A DNA stretch of 64,000 nt from Candidatus Saccharimonadales bacterium (GTDB lineage Bacteria; Patescibacteriota; Saccharimonadia; Saccharimonadales; UBA4665): contig DASVRW010000002.1 in assembly GCA_036388415.1 (NCBI GenBank), positions 789,396 to 853,395 on the forward strand, written 5' to 3'. Made by a program: the position numbers and the translations under genes. The notes under the pieces are model-generated. The model saw only the letters and a list, made by a program, of their open reading frames with translations, was not told the origin of the DNA and made no database searches. Below are positions 39,506 through 39,905 of the stretch, in pieces; the stretch's first letter is position 1, and each line of letters begins with the position of its first letter.

Positions 39506-39768
39506 GACTTGTAGTGTATCAGAACCAGCATACTATTTCTAGCGTGCTCTGGCGTCTGCACTTCATTCCAGCATAGGCTTAAGGCCGACGCCAAATCTCA
39601 TAGTGAAATTCCTGTTTATTACTATTACTTGTTAAAATATAGTTGTTTTAATTACATTAGTCTTTACATAAAGTACCACGTGTTGTACTATCAAAATGGG
39701 TAGTAAGAGATTCGGCTACTTCGTTTGTAATATGAATCAACGCCGGTCTCGCTTTTCTCCCGATTATG
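39506..39768. other. Intergenic region upstream of Y RNA
   Basis: No protein-coding frame is convincing here. It holds the divergent -10 of the Nudix gene, an AT-rich stretch around 39620-39660, and an imperfect palindrome AGTACCACGTGTTGTACT at 39672-39689 that could be an operator for the Ro60 operon. A promoter for the Y RNA must lie here, with TTATGT near 39764 as a weak -10 candidate. Confidence 0.4.
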
Positions 39769-39905
39769 TTCGTTCACAATAGTAGGACACAGTAATGCGA
39801 GAACTTCATCGTCTCTGGTTTACGGTGCCGGCTGACCCCGGCATACCTAGGTTCGAACCCTAGTTTTGTTCTCGCAAGTTTTCTTGTCTTACTATTGTCA
39901 ACGAA
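39769..39905 (+). ncRNA. yrlA: Bacterial Y RNA with tRNA-like module (YrlA type)
   Basis: The two ends pair in a long stem: 6 bp (39769-39774/39900-39905), one C-C mismatch, then 14 bp (39776-39789/39885-39898, one G-U). Inside is a tRNA-like fold: 8-bp acceptor-like stem GCGAGAAC/GTTCTCGC (39797-39804/39868-39875), D-like arm CGT/ACG with GG in the loop (39810-39824), a 6-bp anticodon-like arm TGCCGG/CCGGCA (39826-39843) and a perfect T arm CTAGG-TTCGAAC-CCTAG (39847-39863). It sits 45 bases before the Ro60 gene. Known Y RNAs bind Ro through the end stem and can tether a nuclease through the other module. The Ro-binding consensus itself cannot be confirmed by eye. Confidence 0.85.

Follow-up and report, generated by a model that had tools for sequence, protein, structure and literature searches.

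A probable Ro-associated Y RNA with a tRNA-like T arm in a Saccharimonadales bacterium

Introduction

Bacterial Y RNAs serve as a model for RNA mimicry, and the Ro protein they accompany is a relative of a human lupus autoantigen. Studies have concentrated on YrlA, whose tRNA head is permuted, and variants that carry a T arm only, or the arms in another order, separate the needs of Ro binding from those of the partner. Such variants make it a testable question which part of the tRNA is imitated, and for whom. YrlA is described as a substrate of DusA and TruB in PMC8394870, where the structure of Salmonella YrlA (PDB 6CU1) is cited, and in D. radiodurans a Y RNA is described as tethering Rsr to PNPase (PMC7790460).

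The locus at 39769-39905 of the window (the whole stretch of 64,000 nt analyzed here) raises this question in a Saccharimonadales genome: what is an RNA that carries a perfect T arm and departs from tRNA elsewhere? It is probably the second of two tandem Y RNAs serving the downstream Ro (termed Y RNA 2), with a lower stem for Ro binding and an upper effector head bearing the T arm. A sequence-only reading had named the locus a Y RNA imitating tRNA for modification enzymes; the identity agrees with the Ro-stem anatomy of relatives and the adjoining Ro gene, and the observation behind it was sound, while the interpretation was right in part.

Results and discussion

Gene context and fold of Y RNA 2

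The order of elements was Y RNA 1, Y RNA 2, Ro, a 77-aa protein, and RtcB, all on the forward strand (Table 1), with 52 nt between the end of Y RNA 2 and the start of the co-directional Ro gene. The 77-aa protein had no Pfam match. The fold of 39770-39905 had an energy of -53.5 kcal/mol compared to -29.8 +/- 3.7 kcal/mol for 200 dinucleotide shuffles (z -6.4), none of which was as good. From base to head, the rod consisted of 6 bp, a C-C mismatch, 14 bp, a bulged C, AG:CU, an internal loop, and 9 bp; the head consisted of the hairpin at 39825-39844 and the perfect T arm at 39847-39863, which was joined to the 9-bp helix by UUUU. The segment 39776-39898 was a long stem capped by the T arm and had no CCA end.

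Table 1. Features of the Ro locus in the window, with their evidence.
Feature	Position	Strand	Evidence and remarks
Sigma-70-like promoter match TTTACA-17-TACTAT	39663-39691	+	Just 5' of Y RNA 1; 9/12 consensus; 1 found vs. 0.7 expected: weak
Y RNA 1, short-insert Ro Y RNA	39694-39765	+	Exact UACUUCG box; internal-loop strand GCUUUUCU; without T arm; R1 model 51.2 bits
Y RNA 2 (probable)	39769-39905	+	Includes distal 6-bp helix UUCGUU/AACGAA; fold z -6.4; R1 model 22.3 bits
Outer helix, 5' strand	39776-39789	+	14 bp with 39885-39898; pairing probability 0.96-1.0
Ro box CAGUAA	39790-39795	+	Bulged C 39790; AG pairs with CU 39883-39884; internal loop UAA; box in relatives, covariation of flanking helices
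Inner helix, 5' strand UGCGAGAAC	39796-39804	+	9 bp with 39868-39876; pairing probability 0.85-1.0; homologous helix covaries in 33 relatives
UUCAUCG, positional counterpart of the UACUUCG box (5/7)	39805-39811	+	Directly after inner helix, as in relatives
Weak D-like hairpin	39808-39826	+	CGU/ACG at 39810-39812/39822-39824; GG in loop; pairing probability ~0.3
7-bp hairpin GUGCCGG-CUGACC-CCGGCAU ("anticodon-like")	39825-39844	+	6-nt loop CUGACC; fold; pairing probability 0.76-1.0
Perfect T arm CUAGG-UUCGAAC-CCUAG	39847-39863	+	5 bp; chance 0.1 per 64 kb; pairing probability 0.75-0.81
UUUU linker, T arm to inner helix	39864-39867	+	Sequence and fold
Inner helix, 3' strand GUUCUCGCA	39868-39876	+	Fold, pairing probabilities
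Internal loop, 3' strand AGUUUUCU	39877-39884	+	Relatives' consensus RN(U)UUUCU
Outer helix, 3' strand	39885-39898	+	Pairing probabilities; C39899 is the 3' partner in the C-C mismatch
Ro (TROVE + vWA) protein, 481 aa	39951-41396	+	Pfam TROVE E 8.8e-23; 49-52% full-length identity to huge-phage Ro
Small protein, 77 aa	41413-41646	+	Relative directly after Ro in viral contigs L058/L059, 46% over 39 aa (tblastn over loci)
RtcB RNA ligase, 390 aa	41666-42838	+	Pfam RtcB E 8.6e-115

The Ro stem and its relatives

The stem was compared with 140 Ro loci (L004-L143), mostly from phage contigs together with Bacteroidota and Clostridia, many of the viral contigs being near-duplicates. The string [AU]ACUUC[GA] following an AG[UC][AG] box was found 254 times on the sense strand upstream of Ro (140 loci) compared to 12 times on the opposite strand (143 loci), and 26 of the 140 loci were without a box plus UACUUC-type string. 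A strict parser requiring outer helix, box, inner helix, and 3' strand identified 190 complete units in 97 of the 140 loci, compared to one on the reverse strand. A reworked parser yielded 168 units in 94 loci, including 123 distinct units in 64 loci with inserts of up to 135 nt, and cut some units wrongly (e.g., L094 at -376 and L090 at -1157).

All 44 units with a 6-nt box and an 8-nt 3' strand carried the first five positions of the box [CU]AG[UC][GA]A and, with few exceptions, their 3' internal-loop strand ended in UUUUCU. Across the 18 pairs of 33 short-insert units, 90.8% of pairings were standard, with 153 double-change cells vs. 47 in shuffles and 27-54 with slid structures and a covariation score of 0.666 vs. 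0.192. The same 33 units had an always-unpaired C or U beside the outer helix followed by AG:CU, a bulged pyrimidine that is the counterpart of C39790. Judged by its sequence and pairing, the stem of Y RNA 2 is that of a Ro Y RNA: outer helix, bulged pyrimidine, AG:CU, internal loop, 9-bp inner helix, and a UACUUCG-like box. Relative to UACUUCG, the UUCAUCG of Y RNA 2 looks as if the A and U of positions 2 and 4 had been swapped, and the corresponding string in L046 is UACAUCG.

A covariance model built from the 33 relatives with the window excluded (R1) reported Y RNA 1 with default filters (E 5.5e-10) as its sole match up to E 10 in the 64 kb and up to E 1 in the organism's own genome; this second Y RNA had been absent from the sequence-only reading. 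An insert of 63 nt and a box matching UACUUCG at only five of seven positions explain why Y RNA 2 was not reported with these filters in either the window or the genome. With the filters off on a 461-nt stretch it was recovered at E 3.5e-5, with the outer helix, box CAGUAA, inner helix, and AGUUUUCU aligned and the insert costing score. A mechanical Ro-stem scan over both strands of the whole window ranked Y RNA 2 best (21.0, the next being 18.5). No Rfam Y RNA family reached threshold in the window, and the YrlA model RF02553 had no match to Y RNA 2 up to E 5 in the 461 nt.

The stem that had been read as acceptor-like is instead the Ro-proximal inner helix, common to Y RNAs with and without a tRNA part. 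Its 9 bp continue as the 14-bp helix, which bears out the claim that the end runs into a further helix rather than CCA, and both "acceptor" ends enter the Ro stem, so that Y RNA 2 cannot be charged. The UUUU, present as described, is not a modified tRNA acceptor junction because the "acceptor" is this common inner helix. What sets the RNA apart from tRNA is accounted for by its being a Y RNA, with the inner Ro helix mistaken for an acceptor stem. A C-C mismatch had also been proposed as part of the Ro-binding signal. The mismatch exists but at 39775/39899, beyond the 14-bp helix and outside the 39797-39875 core to which it was ascribed, and was shared by none of the 123 relatives; their first outer-helix mismatch was C-C in five units, none with at least three pairs beyond it. 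A better candidate for the Ro signal is the bulged C 39790 with its internal loop, since a bulged C/U beside AG:CU and a UUUUCU-type internal loop are conserved in the relatives. In vertebrate Y RNAs, a bulged C in the helix beside an internal loop is the Ro60 site. These RNAs have no T arm, and their likeness to Y RNA 2 lies in this bulged C by an internal loop.

Likeness to tRNA

Perfect T arms with the G53-C61 closing pair occurred at four places across both strands of the 64 kb, in the three tRNAs and in Y RNA 2, compared to a mean of 0.1 in 20 mononucleotide shuffles. With T arms of this quality otherwise confined to the tRNAs of the window, and with the strength of the fold, every structural statement of the sequence-only reading was confirmed, the exception being a weak D arm (probability ~0.3) on which that reading had laid no stress. 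The loop of Y RNA 2 fits UUCRANY, and the 5-bp arm carries G53-C61, U54 and U55 at 39852-39853, C56, and A58. These are the substrate determinants of TruB and TrmA, and a T arm alone could suffice for T-loop enzymes.

Beyond this arm, Y RNA 2 was not called a tRNA by ARAGORN and had no match to the Rfam tRNA model (RF00005) up to E 5 on 461 nt. It has neither a 7-bp acceptor on the T stem, nor a 7-nt anticodon loop, nor a CCA/discriminator end; the likeness to tRNA is convincing for the T arm only. The hairpin described as anticodon-like does have a 6-nt loop, but the equivalent hairpins in relatives of the same layout have loops of 7, 3, and 3 nt, which argues against an altered anticodon loop and led to its rejection as an anticodon mimic. 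A GG after the box was likewise rejected as evidence for a D loop, being found in 29 of 63 T-arm units, 19 of 41 short units without a T arm, and 10 of 19 long ones.

Layouts of tRNA parts on the Ro stem

In the RF02553 alignment, YrlA runs from stem to T arm, closed acceptor hairpin, and D arm, a permuted tRNA in which the Ro stem replaces the anticodon arm. YrlA, including that of Salmonella, shares with Y RNA 2 a Ro/Rsr-linked gene, a long end-to-end stem, a canonical T loop, the lack of a chargeable end, and a nearby rtcB. In contrast, Y RNA 2 has the order D-like/hairpin, T arm, UUUU, and stem, without the acceptor hairpin and without a stable D arm. Among Y RNAs from the other loci, RF02553 matched that of the clostridial L113 and, of seven more loci tested, those of L010, L019, L046, L055, and L094 (five loci, at E 0.0013 or better); none of these matches reached the gathering score of 69 bits, and L054 and L090 gave no match at E 0.01.

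Classification of 265 box hits gave 88 permuted, 4 in ordinary order (one of these calls, L137, was false), 20 others with a T arm, and 153 without a T arm in reach. A T arm was present in 64 of the 123 distinct units, followed by at least 30 nt in 56 and by less in 8. Of these eight, L046 and L054 had a hairpin and then the T arm as in Y RNA 2, as probably did L094, whose inner helix was only partly paired after re-cutting by hand; L012, L103, L104, and L117 kept a hairpin after the T arm, and the L090 entry was a mis-cut unit. The viral contig L054 (3193-3302, IMG/VR) resembled Y RNA 2 in its Ro stem, box hairpin, second hairpin, and final T arm with a 3-nt linker to the inner helix, while it differed in a 7-nt loop of the second hairpin, a T loop UCCGAAU that is without U55, and an exact UACUUC. 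This layout was clear in only two relatives (L046, L054) and probable in one (L094). That scarcity, the missing U55 of L054, the weak D-like hairpin, the resemblance of the T arm plus UUUU to a weak terminator, and the failure of R1 to report Y RNA 2 with default filters speak against the preferred reading. No ordinary-order or T-arm-only Y RNA was found in the literature searched, although the main YrlA papers fell outside that search and the result is hence no proof of absence.

The strongest alternative, though less probable than the preferred reading, is a degenerate YrlA, in which the T arm of a permuted mimic survived while the acceptor hairpin and D arm were lost. The permuted layout was by far the commonest among T-arm Y RNAs in both the box hits and the distinct units, L012 and L091 have a T arm and acceptor hairpin with no D arm seen, and L046, L054, and L094 carry permuted-order Y RNAs beside the short ones. 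However, the 7-bp hairpin preceding the T arm in Y RNA 2 is not a leftover of the permuted layout usually seen, and a graded set of intermediates was not found for this lineage.

Complete D-anticodon-T modules in ordinary order inside a Ro stem were identified in L088, L090 (two), L060 (with L061 near-identical), and L007 (two). In minimum free energy folds, all three arms were clear in L060, L088, and the tRNA-Tyr of L007 and unclear in L090 and the tRNA-Lys of L007. Like Y RNA 2, the csAssE-Sib phage (L007) and the Saprospiraceae/Chitinophagales MAGs (L088, L090) have the T arm last and the Ro stem at the acceptor end, whereas they possess full D and anticodon arms. In L007 (OR575929.1), the GenBank tRNA-Tyr and tRNA-Lys at 2666-2738 and 2811-2884 carry a UACUUCG box inside Ro-type stems and are probably Y RNAs with ordinary-order tRNA modules and not tRNAs. 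Dense tRNA arrays lie ~1.2 kb upstream of Ro in the L088 and L090 contigs and include tRNA-like units that bear the box; the tRNA model gave the two such modules of L090 45.7 and 46.3 bits.

These loci bear on a second alternative, an unlikely one, in which Y RNA 2 is a tRNA mimic proper: an L-shaped cloverleaf whose four arms follow the ordinary order, whose D and T loops make contact, and whose acceptor end carries the grafted Ro stem. It would account for the tRNA-like order of D-like arm, hairpin, and T arm, for the GG in the D-like loop, and for the four loci with full modules. Yet the D-like stem had a probability of ~0.3, GG was not enriched in T-arm Y RNAs, the equivalent hairpin loops varied from 3 to 7 nt, and the tRNA model and ARAGORN missed Y RNA 2 although the same model accepted the L090 modules.

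That the segment is a leader or attenuator of the Ro mRNA, with the T arm and UUUU as a terminator or with Ro controlling its own synthesis by binding its 5' UTR, is very improbable. Its co-directional place just before the start codon and a weak terminator-like match at 39847-39863 in a consensus scan (1 found vs. 0.3 expected) point that way. Against it, the stem of 5 bp has only three GC pairs and is weak, Y RNAs have this same outer helix and internal loop, and the occurrence of tandem copies before Ro in many loci is consistent with separate RNAs.

Proposed function

If Y RNA 2 is a Ro Y RNA, Ro would be held by the lower stem (outer helix, bulged C, AG:CU, asymmetric internal loop, and inner helix), leaving a head made of one hairpin and of a true T arm that adjoins this stem directly. 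By analogy with YrlA and the RYPER complex (Ro-Y RNA-PNPase), this head would most likely recruit or position an RNA-processing partner such as PNPase, and the cassette might act with RtcB in the handling of damaged RNA. The T arm is predicted to fold as in tRNA and would probably be pseudouridylated and/or methylated by the cell's T-loop enzymes. The organism's genome had matches to TruB (TruB_N), the TrmA family (tRNA_U5-meth_tr), Dus, and PNPase. The TrmA-type match belongs to PF05958, a family that also includes rRNA methylases, and with these genes present TruB/TrmA-type modification of Y RNA 2 is plausible.

The head of Y RNA 2, laid out unlike that of YrlA, hints at two opposite grafts of tRNA parts on the Ro stem: one in permuted order, with this stem replacing the anticodon arm, and one in ordinary order, with the stem replacing the acceptor end. 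The latter topology, if true, would be complete in the modules of a gut phage, of viral contigs, and of Bacteroidota and be reduced to a hairpin and T arm in Y RNA 2. Both topologies retain only the T arm in common, and therefore its recognition would be the shared function. We offer tentatively, at slightly under even confidence, the wider proposal that Ro Y RNAs imitate tRNA in these two ways with T arm recognition in common and that some phage tRNAs annotated beside Ro are really Y RNAs.

Distribution of the Ro cassette

The genome measures 1.14 Mb and those of its relatives 0.4-1.5 Mb. Within the family, one of 93 genomes carried Ro and two of 93 carried RtcB, and in a sample of 379 genomes from the phylum TROVE occurred in one; the cassette is therefore sporadic in this group. 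The Ro proteins most similar to that of the window were from a 634,780-bp uncultured phage (49.3% identity over 100% of the length) and from IMG/VR contigs (one search giving 52%, another 51% and below), and relatives in a few MAG contigs reached up to 52%. Searching a collection of genome contigs with the Ro sequence of the window alone gave no match, and searching this collection with the Ro alignment gave 58. A quick tree placed this Ro inside a mostly viral clade, its exact place not being fixed. The cassette may have been acquired from, or exchanged with, large phages, and a Ro-Y RNA-RtcB set closest to those of huge phages is now placed in a reduced genome whose relatives lack it.

A further class of Y RNAs was observed in huge phages, with a conserved insert of ~150-250 nt between the inner-helix strands, in 13 loci of which 11 were distinct (L004, L016, L020, L023, L025, L027, L028, L038, L056, and others). 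The insert of L020 had no credible Rfam match up to E 5. These RNAs lie from ~370 to 140 nt upstream of Ro, and GGUGAAAAAGUCC and AGAAUUCUUUGUAACGCUUAGGCU are conserved between their inner-helix strands.
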